Source: Intestinibaculum porci
Lineage (GTDB): Bacteria > Bacillota_I > Bacilli_A > Erysipelotrichales > Coprobacillaceae
Assembly: GCF_003925875.1 (NCBI RefSeq)
Contig: NZ_AP019309.1
Location: 1,550,001 to 1,614,000, forward strand
Length of the DNA: 64,000 bases
Direction of reading: 5' to 3'
Part shown: positions 1,728-9,677 of the stretch, in pieces
Layout of the letters: the number at the start of each line of letters is the position of its first letter
Numbering within the stretch: the first letter of the stretch is position 1
The notes under the pieces: generated by a model
The model's database searches: none
What the model was told of the DNA's origin: nothing
What the model saw: the letters and a program-made list of their open reading frames with translations, nothing else
Position numbers and translations under genes: made by a program

Positions 1728-2216
1728 ATGCAAATCCGAAGAGCAGAGGTTAAGGATATTCCGTCACTGATCACATTATTAAATGAAGTATTAGAAATCC
1801 ACGCCCGGATCAGATCAGATATTTTTATTTCTGGGACAACCAAATATACCCATGAAGAATTAGAAAAGATGATTCAGGATGATCAAAAGCCGATCTTCGT
1901 GGCGGTTGATGATCATGACGATGTCTTAGGGTATGTTTTTACACAAATTGTCAAACAGCCGTTTTCTACTAATATGGTGCCTTTCACATCATTATTTATC
2001 GATGATCTATGTGTGGATAATAAAACCCGCGGCCTTGGCGTTGGCAAGGCCTTATTGGATTTTGTGAAAGCAGAAGCGAAACGCTTAGGCTGTTATGAGG
2101 TAACTCTTAATGTCTGGGCCGGTAATGATGCGGCGATACGTTTCTACGAAAAAAATGGCTTAAAAATCAAGGAAACAACGATGGAATTTATTCTTGATGA
2201 AAAAGCGGATCATTAA
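1728..2216 (+). CDS. GNAT family N-acetyltransferase
   Basis: A 162-residue single-domain GNAT protein that should transfer an acetyl group from acetyl-CoA to an amine. Acetyl-CoA motif A is visible as RGLGVGKAL (about residues 103-111), preceded by the usual beta strand LFIDDLCVD, and the C-terminal NDAAIRFYEKNGLK matches the NxxAxxFYxxxGF signature. The start is the ATG at 1728; the ATG at 1710 lies in front of the AAGGAGG ribosome binding site (1714-1720) and is not used. It is monocistronic behind its own promoter. The substrate cannot be told from sequence. Confidence 0.85.
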   Translation: MQIRRAEVKDIPSLITLLNEVLEIHARIRSDIFISGTTKYTHEELEKMIQDDQKPIFVAVDDHDDVLGYVFTQIVKQPFSTNMVPFTSLFIDDLCVDNKTRGLGVGKALLDFVKAEAKRLGCYEVTLNVWAGNDAAIRFYEKNGLKIKETTMEFILDEKADH

Positions 2217-2238
2217 CCGTTTACATTGATCGTTTCAC

Positions 2239-2267
2239 TTGTCAGATCGATGAAAAACTGATACACT
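2239..2267 (+). promoter_or_regulatory. Promoter of the 76-aa membrane protein
   Basis: TTGTCA (2239-2244), 17-bp spacer, TACACT (2262-2267), followed by an AAAGGGGG ribosome binding site. Confidence 0.5.
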
Positions 2268-2291
2268 CCCTTTCAAGTAAAGGGGGAAAAG

Positions 2292-2522
2292 ATGATGCAA
2301 TACATCAAACATAGTATTTATGCCATCTTGCTTTTTGGGATGGCAGTGCTTGGTGATGTACTTTACAGTACACACATTCATTTACAGACATCTTACTTAG
2401 GAGTGTCCTTACAAAAGGGAATAGCGATTACGCCACGATTACCGCTGATTTTAGTTGGCTTTTTAGCTATTTACTTAACAATTTATCATTTCTTGCCAAG
2501 AAAGCATGAAAATATATTTTAA
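2292..2522 (+). CDS. Small two-helix membrane protein
   Basis: A 76-residue protein with two hydrophobic segments (about 8-24 and 48-67) joined by a polar loop. AAAGGGGGAAAAG precedes two consecutive ATG codons (2292, 2295). It has its own promoter and terminator. No family recognised. Confidence 0.6.
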   Translation: MMQYIKHSIYAILLFGMAVLGDVLYSTHIHLQTSYLGVSLQKGIAITPRLPLILVGFLAIYLTIYHFLPRKHENIF

Positions 2523-2524
2523 AG

Positions 2525-2547
2525 CATCCTTGATTGGATGTTTTTTT
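2525..2547 (+). terminator. Terminator after the 76-aa gene
   Basis: CATCC (2525-2529), 6-nt loop, GGATG (2536-2540), then seven T. Confidence 0.65.
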
Positions 2548-2588
2548 GATATAATTCTTAAACCTTTCTTAAACTTTGCGCTATGCTC

Positions 2589-2617
2589 TTTCCACTTTCT
2601 AAAGGCTCATATATAAT
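2589..2617 (+). promoter_or_regulatory. Probable promoter of the CPBP protease gene
   Basis: TATAAT at 2612-2617 with a weak -35 (TTTCCA, 2589-2594) at 17-bp spacing. Confidence 0.4.
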
Positions 2618-2638
2618 AGGCGGGAAAGGGGTGTTATT

Positions 2639-3487
2639 ATGCATCAACACACATCCTGGAAGGACCATTTGATCATCACTTTGATCCTGACTATTGTTTT
2701 ACTATTTCTAGGTCAGCTTTGCGGCCTTGTTTTTTCACTTATTCAAACGAATAATCCGTTTCTTAAAACCTTTTTGTTTTATGATAGCAACCTGGGTGTC
2801 TGGGTTGTGATAGGAGGATTTTGTCTGCTTTTTAAGCGGGAAAGACCACTTCTTGATATCGTAAAGGAAGGGCGTGGAAATACGACATTAAGTCTCTTTT
2901 TTGGCTTATTATCAGGGATTGTCCTCAATGCCTTTTGCGTTATCTTAGCTTATTTACACAATGATTTTACTTTACTGTTCAATAGCTTTGCGCCATTGCA
3001 GCTGCTTGCTTTACTGTTTGCCGTCCTTATTCAGTCAGGGGCAGAAGAACTTTTAGTACGAGGATTTATGATGCAGCGGTTAGAGCGTCGTTACAGTCCG
3101 CTTTTAGCGATGATTGTCTCGTCCATGCTTTTTGCGGCTTTGCATCTGTTTAATCCGCATGTCACGATGATCGCGGTGATCAATCTTTTTCTCTTTGGTT
3201 TTTTTATGGCTTTAGTCACTACTTTTTATCAGAGCTTATGGATGGTGATCGGTATTCATGCGGCTTGGAATTATACCCAAGCGATCATCTTTGGCTTACC
3301 TAATAGCGGAATTCCTGCCACATATTCCATCTTTTCATTAATGCATCCAATGAAAAGTGCCTTCTATGATCCGCTATTTGGAATCGAAGGTTCCCTCTGT
3401 GCGATGTTATTACTGATTTTACTGATCGCCGCAATGGCTTTTCTCAACGTTTATAAGTGGAAGAGCGCATTTTCGAAACATGAATAA
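2639..3487 (+). CDS. CPBP family intramembrane glutamic endopeptidase
   Basis: A 282-residue polytopic membrane protein of the CPBP/Abi (Rce1-like) protease family. The three signature motifs are all present: EExxxR as E136-E137-x3-R141, a conserved His in FAALHLFNPH (H169), and HxxxN as H207-N211 in GIHAAWN. It should therefore be catalytically competent within the membrane. Such proteins in Firmicutes are linked to bacteriocin self-immunity or prenyl-type processing, but no bacteriocin gene is next to it, so the role stays open. A GAAAGGGG site precedes the ATG. It converges on the LysR gene. Confidence 0.85.
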   Translation: MHQHTSWKDHLIITLILTIVLLFLGQLCGLVFSLIQTNNPFLKTFLFYDSNLGVWVVIGGFCLLFKRERPLLDIVKEGRGNTTLSLFFGLLSGIVLNAFCVILAYLHNDFTLLFNSFAPLQLLALLFAVLIQSGAEELLVRGFMMQRLERRYSPLLAMIVSSMLFAALHLFNPHVTMIAVINLFLFGFFMALVTTFYQSLWMVIGIHAAWNYTQAIIFGLPNSGIPATYSIFSLMHPMKSAFYDPLFGIEGSLCAMLLLILLIAAMAFLNVYKWKSAFSKHE

Positions 3488-3509: not shown

Positions 3510-4395
3510 ATTGTAACCTTTTTTCATAGTTTGTCAGCGCATCAATGAATTTTTGGGTAGGTTTTGACATCTGAATAGCACTTTTCCAGACCATCTTTAG
3601 AGGAAACGTGATCGCTGGCTCGATGCTTTTGAAAGTTAAAGCAGAAGCGTCATCGGTATGGATGATCCCTTCGTAACAGAGACAGTAACCAAGGCCTTCT
3701 TCAACCATTAATGAGGCATTAAAAAGGAGGTTTGTCTTCGCAACGACGCGACAGTCGCTTTTGGATAAGTGCAGATACTGCTCTAAGAGTCGTTCATTAG
3801 CCATTTGTCTAGAGATAATCAGCGGTAAATTCTTTAAATCCGATATGTGAATGGCATCAGTTTGCGATAAAGGATCGTCTTTACGCATCAACAGTCCTAA
3901 ATGATCAGTATAATGTAAAGGTAAGACCTGATACTTATGGTTATTGACCGTCCCGCTGATAATGCCCGTATCAATCAGACCATTTTCGAGCTGCTCCAAA
4001 ACCTGGGTTTCATCACCGCTAATAATTGAAAAACGTAAAGCGGGATAATGACTTTGGAGAGATTTCATAACGGTCACGAGTTCTTTAACGCCGCGCGTCT
4101 CGGCTGAGCCAATGACCACTTCCCCCGTTAAATGTTCATCGGATGAAATAATATCATTTTTAGTTTTTCCCACTAAAGTTAATATTTCTTCCGCTCGCGT
4201 TCTTAAAAGCATCCCTTCTTCTGTTAATGCGATTTTACGATTCCCTCGTATAAAAAGCTGTTTGCCGAGTTCCTTCTCGAGATCTTTTAACTGACGAGAA
4301 AGGGTCGGCTGAGAAAGATAAAGCGTTTGAGCCGCTTTAGATATACTTTCTTCCTGACAGACAGCTAAGAAATATTGTAAAACACGTAATTCCAT
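3508..4395 (-). CDS. LysR family transcriptional regulator
   Basis: A 295-residue LysR-type regulator. Residues 1-60 form the N-terminal winged HTH (LRVLQYFLAV, then ISKAAQTLYLSQPTLSRQLK as the recognition region), and residues about 90-290 form the periplasmic-binding-like effector domain. The start is the ATG at 4395, preceded by GAGAGGTGA; upstream in-frame ATGs up to 4491 lack a ribosome binding site. LysR proteins usually control a divergent gene; here the divergent neighbour is an Rrf2 regulator about 200 bp away. The effector is unknown. Confidence 0.9.
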   Translation of the reverse strand: MELRVLQYFLAVCQEESISKAAQTLYLSQPTLSRQLKDLEKELGKQLFIRGNRKIALTEEGMLLRTRAEEILTLVGKTKNDIISSDEHLTGEVVIGSAETRGVKELVTVMKSLQSHYPALRFSIISGDETQVLEQLENGLIDTGIISGTVNNHKYQVLPLHYTDHLGLLMRKDDPLSQTDAIHISDLKNLPLIISRQMANERLLEQYLHLSKSDCRVVAKTNLLFNASLMVEEGLGYCLCYEGIIHTDDASALTFKSIEPAITFPLKMVWKSAIQMSKPTQKFIDALTNYEKRLQ

Positions 4396-4598: not shown

Positions 4599-5075
4599 AT
4601 GCAAGTTTCTACCAAATTTACTATTGCGATTCATATCCTTGTCGCAACGGAATATTTCAATAATCAAAAGATGAAAGTCACCAGTGACTTCTTATCTATG
4701 TCAATTGGTTCTAATCCTGTTATCATTCGTAATCTGATGCTCAATCTCAAAGAAGAACATTTAATTGAAATTAAACGTGGTCCAGGGGGTATTTCATTAT
4801 TAAAACCACTTAATGAAATTACGTATTTAGATGTTTATAAAGCGGTCGAGACAAAAAGTACAGATGAGCTTTTTAAATATCATGAGCACCCGAATATTGA
4901 GTGCCCAGTTGGACGCAATATTCACCAGGCTTTGGAAGATTCATTAGATGAGATTCAGCAGGCTTTTGAAAAAGAATTATCCTTACACAAAGTGGAAGAT
5001 GTTTATGATAATGTGCTTAAGCAATTATCATTAGAAAAAGTATCAAAACAGGAGGAGAAAGCGCATGCCTTCTAA
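4599..5075 (+). CDS. Rrf2 family transcriptional regulator
   Basis: A 158-residue Rrf2-family winged-helix repressor: the N-terminal STKFTIAIHILV and the wing segment KRGPGGISLLKP are typical. Only one Cys is found in the region where IscR and NsrR carry three cluster-binding Cys, so an Fe-S cluster is unlikely and it is closer to the YwnA-type members. The ATG at 4599 sits 6-8 nt after GGGAGAG. It overlaps the DUF2200 gene by 11 bp, suggesting a coupled two-gene unit. Confidence 0.8.
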   Translation: MQVSTKFTIAIHILVATEYFNNQKMKVTSDFLSMSIGSNPVIIRNLMLNLKEEHLIEIKRGPGGISLLKPLNEITYLDVYKAVETKSTDELFKYHEHPNIECPVGRNIHQALEDSLDEIQQAFEKELSLHKVEDVYDNVLKQLSLEKVSKQEEKAHAF

Positions 5076-5421
5076 GATTTATTCGATGTCATTTGCGAAA
5101 ATCTATCCTTTGCTTGTCCAAAAAGTCGTTCGCAAAGGTCGTTTACCCGAAGAAGCCGATGCCGTGATCAGCTTGTTGACGGGGTATAGCAGTGAGGAGA
5201 TTCATGCAGCCTGTGAAGCGAATGTGGATTATTCAACCTTCTTTGCCAATGCGCCGCACTATCATGAACATGCCGATGCGCTTAAAGGACGCGTCTGCAA
5301 TGTTCGCGTTGAAACAATCGAGGAACCCTTGATGAAACAAATCAGACAATTAGATTTACTTATTGATTTGTTGGCGAAGGGAAAATCATTAGAAGCTATT
5401 ACGTCATTATTTGGCGAATAG
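5065..5421 (+). CDS. DUF2200 family protein
   Basis: A 118-residue protein recognisable as DUF2200, a small family of unknown function, by its N-terminal KIYSMSFAKIYPLLVQKV and the GYSSEEI segment followed by a DYSTFF motif. Length is normal. GGAGGAGAAAGCGC precedes the ATG, which overlaps the 3' end of the Rrf2 gene. The stop codon is only 33 bp before the truncated transporter frame, so a deletion end point probably lies right behind this gene. Confidence 0.8.
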   Translation: MPSKIYSMSFAKIYPLLVQKVVRKGRLPEEADAVISLLTGYSSEEIHAACEANVDYSTFFANAPHYHEHADALKGRVCNVRVETIEEPLMKQIRQLDLLIDLLAKGKSLEAITSLFGE

Positions 5422-5453
5422 CTTTTTCTTTATCCCAGGCGCCACAGGAAAAA

Positions 5454-6443
5454 ATGGGTCTGCTTATGGGTATTGCCTTGATGATTACCGGGGTAGCTCC
5501 AGCCATTGGCCCAACGCTTGGCGGTACTATGATCATGCATGTCGACTGGCGTGCCATCTTTTGGTTTTTAATGCCATTTCTCATCTTTTCTTTGTGTGCG
5601 GGCAGTTATGCGATCCGGCAGTCATTGCCACTAAGCAAACCTTCATTTGATCTTTTAGGTTATTTTTTTCTCGCCTTATCTTTTATTTGCCTGATTGTCG
5701 GGGCATCATTAAGTTCACAGGGCTGGACATCACCTCGCGTCCTGCTGTTAATGCTTGGCTTCATCGTATTTCTAATGCTGTTTGTCATGCATAGTTTACA
5801 TCATGACAATCCGATTATTCATCCTCAGATTTTTGCAGTCAGACCTTTTACTGCCAGTCTAATCACTTATGTCTCCACAAATTTCATGACTTTAGGTCTC
5901 GGTTTTCTCATTCCTAACTTTCTGCAGTTAACTCTGCATAAAAGTGCCTTAACCGCTGGTGTTATCATGATGCCTGGCGCTGTCGTCGCGTTGCTTTTTA
6001 TACCTTTATCAGGTAAAATCTACGATCAGCGCGGTGTTAAAGGAAACGCATTAGCGGCCGTTATTTTTATGATGTTAGCTCAGCTTCTCTTTTTCTTCAA
6101 TGTCAGCCATGCCACGCTTATTTCCTGTCTGATCATTTATATGATTTATGCCTTAGGGCAAGGCTTTTCGATGGGCACTTACATGACCCATGCATTAGCG
6201 CAAATTCCAGAAAAAGAAAGTGCTGATGGCAATGCGATCTTTAATACGCTTTTACAGCTTTTTGGGGCAATTGGCACATCTATTGTCTCCAGCGTCGTGG
6301 CAACGAGTCAAAAAGGCGGGATCACTGCTTCCAACACAGCGATTGGGACAGCGCATGGTTATCTTTTATTAGTAGCTTTATCAGTGGTTGCGTTTATTTG
6401 TGCCTTGATCACCATTCATGATGATCATGCTGCAAAAGCTTAA
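5454..6443 (+). pseudogene. 5'-truncated DHA2-type MFS drug exporter
   Basis: A 329-codon frame matching the C-terminal two thirds of DHA2 (14-helix, EmrB/QacA-type) proton-driven multidrug exporters: the conserved motif APAIGPTLGG, then WRAIFW, and further membrane helices to residue about 320. Family members are usually about 450-480 residues, so roughly the first four helices are missing. The frame stays open leftward through SLSQAPQEK, which still reads like the family, into the end of the DUF2200 gene where homology stops. AGGA lies 5 nt before the ATG, so a truncated product might be made, but a working exporter is unlikely. The adjoining Rrf2 gene may once have regulated it. Confidence 0.7.
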
Positions 6444-6510: not shown

Positions 6511-6640
6511 CATTCTTTTACTTATTATATTTACAATAATGCTTGTTTTTATGTTAACATATAATTATAAACAAGCCGGGAAACTTGTTTGTGATTATAT
6601 GGATCATATTAAAATAAAGTATGGGATATGGGGTGAAGAT

Positions 6641-7315
6641 ATGAAGATCCTTTTAATTGATGATGATCTCACTTTTGCATGCCAGCTGAGAGAAGATGCG
6701 CTCGCTTATTTTGGTCATGATGTCACTGTCATCATAGAAACGCAATATCGGTTATCAAGCGATGATGATATTGATGCTTTTTTTATCGCGATTCAATCAG
6801 ATGATCTTCGCGGCTTCGAATTAGCGCAAGCGCTGCAGGAAAAATATAAAGCTCCACTGGTGATCTTTGTGTCAAATAATGCGGAGCTTGTCTTCAAAGC
6901 GTTAGTGATCGGGATGTTTCAGTTTATTCGAAAAGAGCACTATCAGGAAGATCTCGAAGCTGTTTTTCCGCAGCTGAAAGCGGAATTAGAAAAACGTATT
7001 TATTCGATCACGATCGAAACATCCGGACGTACGTTAACGATTATACCGCCACGTATTGAATATTTCGTGGTTATTAACCACGAATTAATTGTTGTTTCTA
7101 ATAATCAGCCTACCGTTTTACGTTCCACTGTGAAAAAGGCCTTAAATCTTTTTCACTATCCGTATTTAGTGCAGATTCGTCGCGGCACGGTGGTGAATCT
7201 TGATTATGTTACATCGGTAAAAGGTCACATTTTAATGATTGATGAAAAATCATTTACGATCTCACGAAAGTACTATGCGGATTTTAAATCAGCTTGGAAA
7301 AAATACCATATTTAG
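6641..7315 (+). CDS. LytTR-type response regulator with an atypical receiver
   Basis: A 224-residue regulator: CheY-like receiver (about 1-118) and LytTR DNA-binding domain (about 122-224, including VQIRRGTVVNLDYV). The acidic pocket D7-D9 and the conserved Lys (IRKE) are present, but the phospho-acceptor position in IDAFFIAIQ is Ala (A50), where a typical receiver has Asp (xxFLDIQ). The protein therefore probably works without phosphorylation. The start is the ATG at 6641 behind GGGGTGA; the longer frame to 6482 runs back into the preceding terminator. No histidine kinase gene is adjacent. Directly behind the stop lie two box-like direct repeats, a promoter and a tiny peptide gene. Confidence 0.85.
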   Translation: MKILLIDDDLTFACQLREDALAYFGHDVTVIIETQYRLSSDDDIDAFFIAIQSDDLRGFELAQALQEKYKAPLVIFVSNNAELVFKALVIGMFQFIRKEHYQEDLEAVFPQLKAELEKRIYSITIETSGRTLTIIPPRIEYFVVINHELIVVSNNQPTVLRSTVKKALNLFHYPYLVQIRRGTVVNLDYVTSVKGHILMIDEKSFTISRKYYADFKSAWKKYHI

Positions 7316-7346
7316 TGCATTGTACGTCATATAATTGCATTATACG
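7316..7346 (+). promoter_or_regulatory. Two direct repeats, candidate LytTR boxes
   Basis: TGCATTGTACG (7316-7326) and TGCATTATACG (7336-7346) match at 10 of 11 bases with 20-bp periodicity, about two helical turns. They end 9 bp before a -35 element. LytTR proteins bind paired direct repeats in this position, so these may be the operator of the upstream regulator. This is inference. Confidence 0.45.
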
Positions 7347-7355
7347 ACAGATGTA

Positions 7356-7384
7356 TTTACAAAAATAAAGATATCGCATATCGT
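7356..7384 (+). promoter_or_regulatory. Promoter of the 19-codon peptide gene
   Basis: TTTACA (7356-7361), 17-bp spacer, TATCGT (7379-7384). The poor -10 is consistent with a promoter needing an activator bound at the repeats just upstream. Confidence 0.45.
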
Positions 7385-7429
7385 AGACATGTGTTCAAGA
7401 AAGGCGTCGTGTCTTTGAGGAGCACCGTT

Positions 7430-7489
7430 ATGGGAGATACAATATATAAGCAGAATCGGGTTTGGTGGGCTGAGTTTCTGCCGGACTAG
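7430..7489 (+). CDS. Putative 19-aa peptide
   Basis: A short frame starting at ATG 7430, 7 nt after GAGGAG (7417-7422). It would encode MGDTIYKQNRVWWAEFLPD. The stop lies in the first arm of a strong terminator, so the whole transcript seems to consist of this ORF. There is no signal peptide or membrane segment. The Trp-Trp pair recalls short hydrophobic pheromones, but no homology is claimed. It could also be a leader or a non-coding RNA with a chance ORF. Its place directly behind the LytTR gene suggests it is that regulator's target or partner. Confidence 0.45.
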   Translation: MGDTIYKQNRVWWAEFLPD

Positions 7490-7512
7490 TCAGGTAGGTG
7501 ACTAGTCCTTTT
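7483..7512 (+). terminator. Strong terminator after the 19-aa ORF
   Basis: A perfect 10-bp stem, GGACTAGTCA (7483-7492) with TGACTAGTCC (7499-7508), 6-nt loop, then TTTT. It separates the peptide transcript from the downstream glycosidase-like gene. Confidence 0.9.
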
Positions 7513-7685
7513 AATTATGCCTTTTCTCATCACATAAAAAGCGCAAAGAACCCATAATTACCCACAATATGACTAAAATATAACTCAACTATAAAAATAA
7601 AAAGAAGTTCCTTAAGTATACTTTAAGCACCCTTGATAAATTTTCTTTTCTCCCTTATGGTGAAAAGGCGAAAGGAGTGCGTTTT
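7513..7685 (+). promoter_or_regulatory. AT-rich leader of the DUF5722-like gene
   Basis: About 170 bp with no ORF. It holds a near-palindrome at 7611-7627 around a perfect AAGTATACTT core (7614-7623), which could be an operator or the -10 area. No convincing -35/-10 pair was found. An AAAGGAG site (7671-7677) precedes the downstream ATG. Confidence 0.35.
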
Positions 7686-9677
7686 ATGAAACGAGTATTG
7701 ATCAGCGTGATGACGCTGACCATGATGTTTGGGATTATGAGTGGAAAGGTGCAAAGTGTTCAGGCCGCAGCCACATCATTTCAGGTTTCTGTTACGTCAT
7801 CAAAAGTGACAATAAATGTGAAGGGATATAAAACATCGGGGACAATCTATGGCTATGATGCCAATAGCTATGCAAAAAAGGATAGCCTTAAAGGCATCAG
7901 CAAGGATCTGACCAATACGGGCTCTTTTAAAGTCGGTAGTTATACCAAAGGGAAAAGTCAGACATATAGTTTTGATCGCTATACCAAAGAAGGGAAGGAT
8001 CTTCTCTATAGTAAGTATTATCTGCTTTCAAGCAGTGGCAAGATTATTAAGGGACCGGTCTATGCTACTAAAATCACCTCAGTTAAAAAGAAGATTGGCT
8101 TTACGCAAAATACCAAAAAGGGACTCTATAATGAAAATAGTACGAATATGTCATATGCCAAGGATTTAGGCGTATCATCCATTACAGTGAATTTAGATTT
8201 AGCTTCATTAATGTATGTTAATTCGCATCCGGAAGGATCAATTGCTTTCAAATCACAGGGGAAGACTTATTATTTTGATGCGTCCATGGTCGCTAATTAT
8301 GATGCGATGATCAGCACTGCCAGCAAGAAAAGTATGAATGTCATTGCGATTATTGCGGCCTGGAAAACCAGTGATACCAATCGCTTTTCTTCTTCATTGC
8401 GTTACAAATCTTCAGTAGGGTCACCGTTATTAGGGACCAATACTTCTAATGATATCGGCCGTGATGAATATATCGCGATGATGGAGTTCCTCGCTAACCG
8501 TTATTCGAAAAGCAAGTCAAAAGGGCTGATTAACACTTATGTGATCTCTAATGAAATTGATTTCACGCCCTATTTCTATAACTGTAAGTCGCTGAATACT
8601 TTTATGGCCGAATATGAACGCTCTCTGCGTTTAGCCAACTTAGCGGTAAAGAAGTATGCTGGTGATGCGAACGTGGCGGTGCCATTTACTCATTACTGGA
8701 ATGGTGATGAAAACAAATTAGGAAAAGAAAACAGCGGTTATTCGCTTAAACCTTATCAGATGCTCAACTGGTTAGCGAAAACAACCAATGCGCAAGGAGC
8801 GTATGACTGGGCGATTGCGCCACATATTTATAGTTCTTTAAATACGAAAAGTAATTTCTTGAAAGACGATTCTAAACGTGGCTGGGTCAATGGCAACTAT
8901 AAAACAAGTAAGCAGCTGACTTTTACGAATGTGGAAATCCTGCAAAAATATTTATCGACATCTGCTTTAAAATATAATGGGAAAATACGCTTTGTCTATT
9001 TAACGGAAAGCGGTGTTTCTTCTTCAAGTAACAGCACCAAAGCGAAAAACGAACAGGCTGCCTCTTTAGCTTACGTGTATCTGAAGATTGCTAATTTAAG
9101 CTGTATTAAGAGCTTCAACTATTATCGTCTGCAGGATCATGAAGCAGAAAGCAAGCATCACTTATCGATTGGCTTATTAACGACGGCTGGAAAGAAGAAA
9201 CCGGCTTATACGGTTTATAAAAATATTGATACGTATAACATGCGAACAACTGCCAATAAATATCTGAAATACCTCAGCTTCTATAAAAACGGAAAGACGT
9301 ATTACAGCGTTGCTAATGGTAAGATCAAGTCCTACCAGACACCGATGTCCGTTTTTAGTGGGTATAAATGGTCCTTTAGTTTCCGTAATGCCTTAAAAAG
9401 TTCATTAAAAAAGAATGATCCAGGCATGATCTACAATGTCAAGGCATCGAAAAAGACGAAAACCGCGATGACAATTTCTTACCGTAAAGCAGTCGCAGCG
9501 ACGGGTTATCGTATCAAAGTGAATGGCAAGACGAAAGTGACAACGAAAAAAACATCAGCCCGCATCACCGGACTGAAATCTAAAAAGTCATATAAAATTA
9601 CAGTGCAGGCTTATAAAACGGTGAAAGGCAAGAAACATTATGGCTTTACCACAAGCGTGACTCTCAAAACGAAATAA
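7686..9677 (+). CDS. Secreted glycosidase-like protein (DUF5722-type) with C-terminal Fn3 domain
   Basis: A 663-residue exported protein: Sec signal peptide about residues 1-29 (cleavage near VQAAA), a small N-terminal beta domain, a central TIM-barrel-like domain about 125-520, and a C-terminal fibronectin III-like domain about 580-663 rich in Lys and Thr. The central domain carries VISNEID and YLTESGVSS, which fit the acid/base NE and nucleophile TE of clan GH-A glycosidases; the region looks like DUF5722. The substrate is unknown. The start is the ATG at 7686, 8 nt after AAAGGAG. No sortase motif is present, so it is either released or held by charge. Confidence 0.7.
   Translation: MKRVLISVMTLTMMFGIMSGKVQSVQAAATSFQVSVTSSKVTINVKGYKTSGTIYGYDANSYAKKDSLKGISKDLTNTGSFKVGSYTKGKSQTYSFDRYTKEGKDLLYSKYYLLSSSGKIIKGPVYATKITSVKKKIGFTQNTKKGLYNENSTNMSYAKDLGVSSITVNLDLASLMYVNSHPEGSIAFKSQGKTYYFDASMVANYDAMISTASKKSMNVIAIIAAWKTSDTNRFSSSLRYKSSVGSPLLGTNTSNDIGRDEYIAMMEFLANRYSKSKSKGLINTYVISNEIDFTPYFYNCKSLNTFMAEYERSLRLANLAVKKYAGDANVAVPFTHYWNGDENKLGKENSGYSLKPYQMLNWLAKTTNAQGAYDWAIAPHIYSSLNTKSNFLKDDSKRGWVNGNYKTSKQLTFTNVEILQKYLSTSALKYNGKIRFVYLTESGVSSSSNSTKAKNEQAASLAYVYLKIANLSCIKSFNYYRLQDHEAESKHHLSIGLLTTAGKKKPAYTVYKNIDTYNMRTTANKYLKYLSFYKNGKTYYSVANGKIKSYQTPMSVFSGYKWSFSFRNALKSSLKKNDPGMIYNVKASKKTKTAMTISYRKAVAATGYRIKVNGKTKVTTKKTSARITGLKSKKSYKITVQAYKTVKGKKHYGFTTSVTLKTK

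Follow-up and report, generated by a model that had tools for sequence, protein, structure and literature searches.

A LytTR regulator of Intestinibaculum porci carries a receiver domain without the phospho-acceptor aspartate, has no kinase gene as a neighbour, and is directly followed by two direct repeats, a promoter at the spacing of LytTR-activated promoters and a terminator, at a site found only once in the genome. We give about an even chance to the explanation that this protein is a one-component pseudo-receiver regulator activating one dedicated, terminated RNA of ~120 nt. It is ranked ahead of a decaying or by-product unit, a functional peptide and a leader of the downstream gene, in this order. 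Unless another locus is named, positions refer to the window, which is the whole stretch of 64,000 nucleotides that was analysed.

According to the proposed mechanism, a protein of the AgrA/ComE type, having lost both the phospho-acceptor and the membrane partner once encoded beside it, would act as a one-component activator that does without phosphorylation. Its targets would be the pair of direct repeats that immediately follow its gene; bound there, it would switch on one weak promoter, giving rise to one terminated RNA of ~120 nt. The role of this RNA would most likely be regulatory, whether or not a 19-aa ORF on it is translated, and the unit would resemble agr P3-RNAIII in miniature. The switching of pseudo-receivers without phosphorylation has been called a mystery (2025 review, PMC12632262). 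What appears to be new here is a LytTR regulator that naturally lacks the aspartate and has one target, next to its own gene, and such a protein with one clear cognate promoter offers a compact test system of one regulator, one site and one short RNA.

The regulator and its receiver domain

6641..7315, + strand: regulator of 224 aa with an aspartate-less receiver (A50) and a LytTR DNA-binding domain, by Pfam and residue check
6558..6601, no strand assigned: imperfect palindrome of 44 bp with 18-bp arms, 16/18 complementary as DNA, from the RNA fold

The regulator ORF runs from an ATG at 6641 to a TAG stop at 7313-7315, and its codon score of 0.39 corresponds to normal, gene-like usage. The C-terminal LytTR domain (PF04397) was detected with 36.5 bits against a Pfam cut-off of 22.6. 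The N-terminal receiver (PF00072, E 1.6e-6) reached 28.7 bits, slightly below the cut-off of 30.2, and its assignment was also obtained from the full-length alignment with receiver + LytTR relatives. A single-sequence structure model, with a pLDDT of 41, did not confirm the fold. In the alignment, the phospho-acceptor column is occupied by alanine (A50), with the context FIAIQ versus FLDID in the relatives; the remaining acidic residues D7 and D8 are retained, as are S78 and K98. By this replacement of D by A at the phospho-acceptor, the regulator is classified as a pseudo-receiver protein.

The initial annotation had reported an alanine at this position and no adjoining kinase gene, and both observations were confirmed: Pfam detected no histidine kinase among the neighbouring ORFs, which encode an Rrf2 regulator, a DUF2200 protein, an MFS transporter and an exported DUF5722 protein. 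The direct neighbours, the MFS transporter fragment and the DUF5722 protein, include no membrane inhibitor of the LytTR regulatory system (LRS) type. The protein does not belong to the RRNPP (TPR) family either, as Pfam yields the receiver and LytTR domains only. A distant kinase may act on a different residue of the regulator.

A precedent for activity in this state is ComE D60A of Streptococcus mutans, a LytTR regulator that likewise has alanine at the phospho-acceptor and, although non-phosphorylatable, activates its own target promoter (PMC12323615). By analogy, the regulator described here most likely activates without phosphorylation. However, the ComE variant was engineered and the protein normally works with the kinase ComD (PMC12323615), whereas here the alanine is natural and no kinase adjoins the gene. 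The regulator also resembles the described aspartate-less pseudo-receivers, which lack the key Asp and are expected to work without phosphorylation; in a word search, the review of these proteins contained no LytTR regulators (PMC12632262).

The palindrome at 6558-6601 lies upstream of the regulator, in the gap that separates it from the MFS gene. As RNA it folds with 18 pairs at -18.3 kcal/mol, and the fold of 6535-6660 has a z of -4.0 against shuffles. It is possibly an operator or a 5' UTR hairpin, and no other full copy was found in the genome. The EmrB-type MFS gene (5065-6443) lies directly behind DUF2200; its match to the family profile sets in near position 125, and the gene looks truncated at its 5' end.

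Direct repeats and promoter

7316..7332, + strand: direct repeat 1, TGCATTGTACGTCATAT, with core GCATTGTAC at 7317-7325, a proposed LytTR half-site
7336..7352, + strand: direct repeat 2, TGCATTATACGACAGAT, with core GCATTATAC at 7337-7345
7356..7384, + strand: promoter TTTACA-17-TATCGT, 9/12 matches

The two direct repeats, previously described as 11 bp long with a period of 20 bp, could be extended to 17 bp each, of which 14/17 positions are identical at the same period, and the first begins one base past the regulator stop. The promoter recognised at that time was also recovered, with the -35 element TTTACA at 7356-7361 and the -10 element TATCGT at 7379-7384, which would place the transcription start near 7391. 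With 9-bp cores, whose register is free by ±1 base, the layout reads GCATTGTAC-11 bp-GCATTATAC-10 bp-TTTACA-17-TATCGT. In LytTR-activated promoters, the repeats are separated by 11-13 bp, a distance of 10 bp to the -35 element is strongly preferred, and several examples carry TTTACA-17 (PMC6193735). The spacing found here, 11 bp between the repeats and 10 bp to the -35 element, agrees with these published values. The hexamers alone are not above chance, with 6 occurrences in the stretch versus 5.2 expected.

The repeat alone (at least 14/17 at a spacing of 18-24) was reached in 5/2000 shuffles of 7316-7682, and the repeat with a correctly placed promoter in 19/10,000 shuffles of the same region and in 3/10,000 of 7316-7430. 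Across the window, with both strands counted (128 kb), the full repeat-promoter layout was present four times. The control site behind the regulator looks real, and we infer that it is bound by the LytTR protein. The likeness to LytTR sites is in the spacing and not in the letters: the core seems to fit the general LytTR consensus poorly.

In a search with 20 fixed positions that allowed up to 3 mismatches, the pair of boxes was unique in the 3.2-Mb genome. A looser search with the 9-bp form returned 45 matches versus 39 in the control, and 11 of the 45 share one motif and are presumably 16S rRNA copies, as judged by eye. Beyond these rRNA copies, the genome showed no regulon of further box sites above the control, and the simplest reading of the search is that the regulator would have one dedicated target site.

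The predicted transcript and its short open reading frame

7391..7512, + strand: predicted short transcript of ~120 nt, with a 5' hairpin (7391-7425), a hairpin (7450-7481) and the terminator, from the fold
7417..7422, + strand: Shine-Dalgarno GAGGAG, 7 nt before the ATG, from the sequence
7430..7489, + strand: 19-aa ORF MGDTIYKQNRVWWAEFLPD, of doubtful coding status by codon usage and homologue searches
7483..7512, + strand: intrinsic terminator with a perfect 10-bp stem, a 6-nt loop and TTTT (stem-loop 7483-7508)

The transcript is most likely a dedicated, terminated regulatory RNA, with or without a translated 19-aa ORF. The region 7389-7516 folds with a z of -3.17 against shuffles; this is mostly due to the terminator, as the fold is modest without it (z -1.53). 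This modest fold counts against the main explanation, and so do the absence of an Rfam match and of anything similar to the site or the RNA in 43 family genomes, plasmids and phages, as well as the apparently poor fit of the repeat core and the long branches of the regulator tree.

The 19-aa ORF preceded by GAGGAG and the perfect terminator, both part of the earlier description, were found as stated. The ORF extends from ATG 7430 to TAG 7487-7489, and its stop codon is held in the 5' arm of the terminator stem. As a gene, the ORF makes a weak case. Its length is unremarkable, since 19 stop-free codons have a probability of 0.24, and its log-odds codon score of -0.13 compares with a median of 0.43 for the genes of the window and with -0.26 for random stop-free sequence; a score at least this good is reached by 30% of random sequences, and one this poor by 1.5% of gene windows. 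The only notable features are the Shine-Dalgarno sequence and its joint occurrence with the terminator: 28 kb of stranded intergenic DNA contain 4 short ORFs with a Shine-Dalgarno sequence, and only this one has a terminator. No homologue of the peptide was detected in the 43 family genomes or in the PDB. The peptide is hydrophilic throughout (GRAVY -0.67, best 10-aa window -0.23) and therefore without an export leader. Together with the random-like codon usage and the missing homologue in the 43 family genomes, this does not fit a conserved peptide gene with export features, of the ComRS/Rgg type.

The ORF shares the frame of the regulator, and this frame is open for 57 codons past the TAG at 7313 (7316-7486), the last of them being those of the ORF, which has a probability of about 0.014 for a given frame and is likely chance. 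Longer readings of the frame gave no PHROGs match, and the 20-, 32- and 57-aa readings no Pfam match. The N-terminus of the peptide (IYKQ..VWWAEF) has an apparent likeness to MazF. A MazF/PemK remnant was rejected, as none of the three readings matched PF02452 and the genome has no PemK family.

In a further explanation, which is improbable, the 19-aa peptide would be the functional product and would act on the regulator or on another protein, inside the cell or after export, in a circuit without a kinase. A well-spaced Shine-Dalgarno sequence, a promoter and a terminator that enclose just this ORF, and a tandem Trp near the C-terminus, reminiscent of the type II XIP pheromones, would all suit such a peptide, but the random-like codon usage, the hydrophilic character and the missing homologue speak against it. 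Pseudo-receivers can bind ligands, yet a word search of the review that describes them found no mention of peptide ligands (PMC12632262), and none of the papers searched combined pseudo-receiver, peptide and LytTR.

In the initial annotation, the peptide was suggested as a possible signal bound by the regulator itself. A more far-reaching form would have the peptide made from the adjoining transcript as the ligand of the regulator, replacing phosphorylation at the receiver in an intracellular feedback circuit of one gene and one peptide. Binding of the peptide to the regulator is speculation, and the more far-reaching form is very improbable. Of the earlier interpretation, a LytTR regulator with neither the canonical phospho-acceptor nor a kinase neighbour, followed by one promoter at the published LytTR spacing and by a terminator, was upheld; the ORF as a peptide gene was not borne out by codon usage or by homologues in the searched sets, and a signal bound by the regulator was not supported either, as the peptide is hydrophilic and has no export leader, and the search revealed no LytTR pseudo-receiver known to bind a peptide.

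The position of the ORF at the terminator would also suit a leader or attenuator, in which translation of the Trp-Trp short ORF and the terminator would control read-through into the DUF5722 gene at 7677. The tandem TGG codons stand just ahead of the terminator, with the stop codon falling inside its 5' arm, and the DUF5722 gene starts 170 nt further on in the same direction; however, the best antiterminator pairing is 7 bp, G-U pairs included, and the downstream gene, which encodes DUF5722 + fn3 and is not a tryptophan gene, comes with a separate promoter-like sequence at 7633-7661. This explanation is quite improbable. A Trp-type attenuator was rejected, with no antiterminator alternative to the terminator beyond these 7 bp.

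Relatives of the regulator

No orthologue was found in one other species of the genus (an assembly 82% complete) or in class- and phylum-wide samples. The best matches are 28-36% identical, belong to the same family and lie in other neighbourhoods. Nearly all relatives keep the Asp, and most are accompanied by an overlapping membrane protein of ~400 aa, placed like AgrC. Two regulators from another genus (G036 and G033, loci L012 and L016) have Asn for Asp and Gln for Lys, and no membrane partner. In the tree, the regulator groups with these two with a support of 96/88, inside an Asp-containing clade; all three Asp-less members are without the partner, and the surrounding clade mostly keeps both. 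Therefore, a small partner-free branch of pseudo-receivers is supported, which suggests that Asp and partner were lost on a shared branch, and not by mere decay of one gene. The grouping could be partly an artefact of long branches. No boxed promoter was detected behind the Asn-receiver relatives, where no 8/9 repeat occurs.

Decay is the basis of another reading: behind an orphan regulator that is losing its function, real repeats and a real promoter would yield a transcript that is only a by-product or a decaying remnant, and the ORF would be spurious. The phospho-acceptor is lost, the sister species keeps no orthologue and nothing in the unit is conserved among the 43 family genomes, but the codon usage of the regulator is gene-like, its LytTR domain is intact and its other receiver residues are kept. 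The 57-codon open frame would fit an eroded 3' extension, yet the relatives terminate at a similar position and show no ancestral extension. Overall, decay is unlikely.

Some observations concern the relatives themselves. In the loci of the Asn-receiver regulators (L053, 7637-11051, and L054), which have no kinase, the regulator genes are followed by genes for a cyclophilin-like lipoprotein, an alpha/beta hydrolase and a metallo-beta-lactamase-fold protein, and a conserved intergenic stretch is present. Pfam gave no kinase match for the membrane partners of the Asp-containing relatives, so even there the usual two-component scheme may not apply. The AgrC-placed partners in L010, L011, L013, L014, L020 and L021 (ORFs at ~2175-3440) have a conserved His region, but a HATPase domain was not matched by Pfam, and neither an N-box nor a G-box was recognised by eye; the partners are possibly pseudo-kinases. 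In L056 (3559-7329), a LytTR regulator is apparently split into a receiver (3559-4044) and a LytTR part (6973-7329), with transposase-like genes between the halves (IS30-like by eye).

Comparison with known systems

In the agr system of Staphylococcus, an activator of the AgrA type, with receiver and LytTR domains, acts at P3, a promoter with direct repeats, and drives RNAIII, a regulatory RNA with a short ORF. The unit described here has the same association of an AgrA-type regulator with a direct-repeat promoter for a predicted RNA carrying a short ORF. However, it has no AgrC, AgrB or AgrD neighbour and no phospho-acceptor, and its predicted RNA of ~120 nt is unrelated to RNAIII, with no shared sequence (no Rfam match).

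ComRS/XIP and Rgg-SHP regulators are TPR (RRNPP) proteins, and type II XIP has a tandem Trp near the C-terminus. They share with the present unit a regulator gene followed by a short ORF, here also with a tandem Trp near the C-terminus, but the regulator here is a LytTR and not a TPR protein, and the ORF has neither leader nor homologue. Like the present unit, the LRS systems (HdrRM, BrsRM) regulate through LytTR proteins without a kinase; their repeats are separated by 11-13 bp, and the -35 element follows after ~10 bp (PMC6193735). Unlike the present unit, which has no partner and carries the repeats behind the gene, they have an adjacent membrane inhibitor and repeats before their own operon (PMC6193735).

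The gene downstream of the terminator (7677-9677) encodes an exported DUF5722 protein. Its paralogues lie in another cluster, and a leader for DUF5722 genes is improbable. Seven copies of DUF5722 exported proteins are found in this genome, most of them amid apparent exopolysaccharide genes (L090, L091, G000:C1 2385000-2430000); others occur in the sister species and hardly elsewhere in the family.
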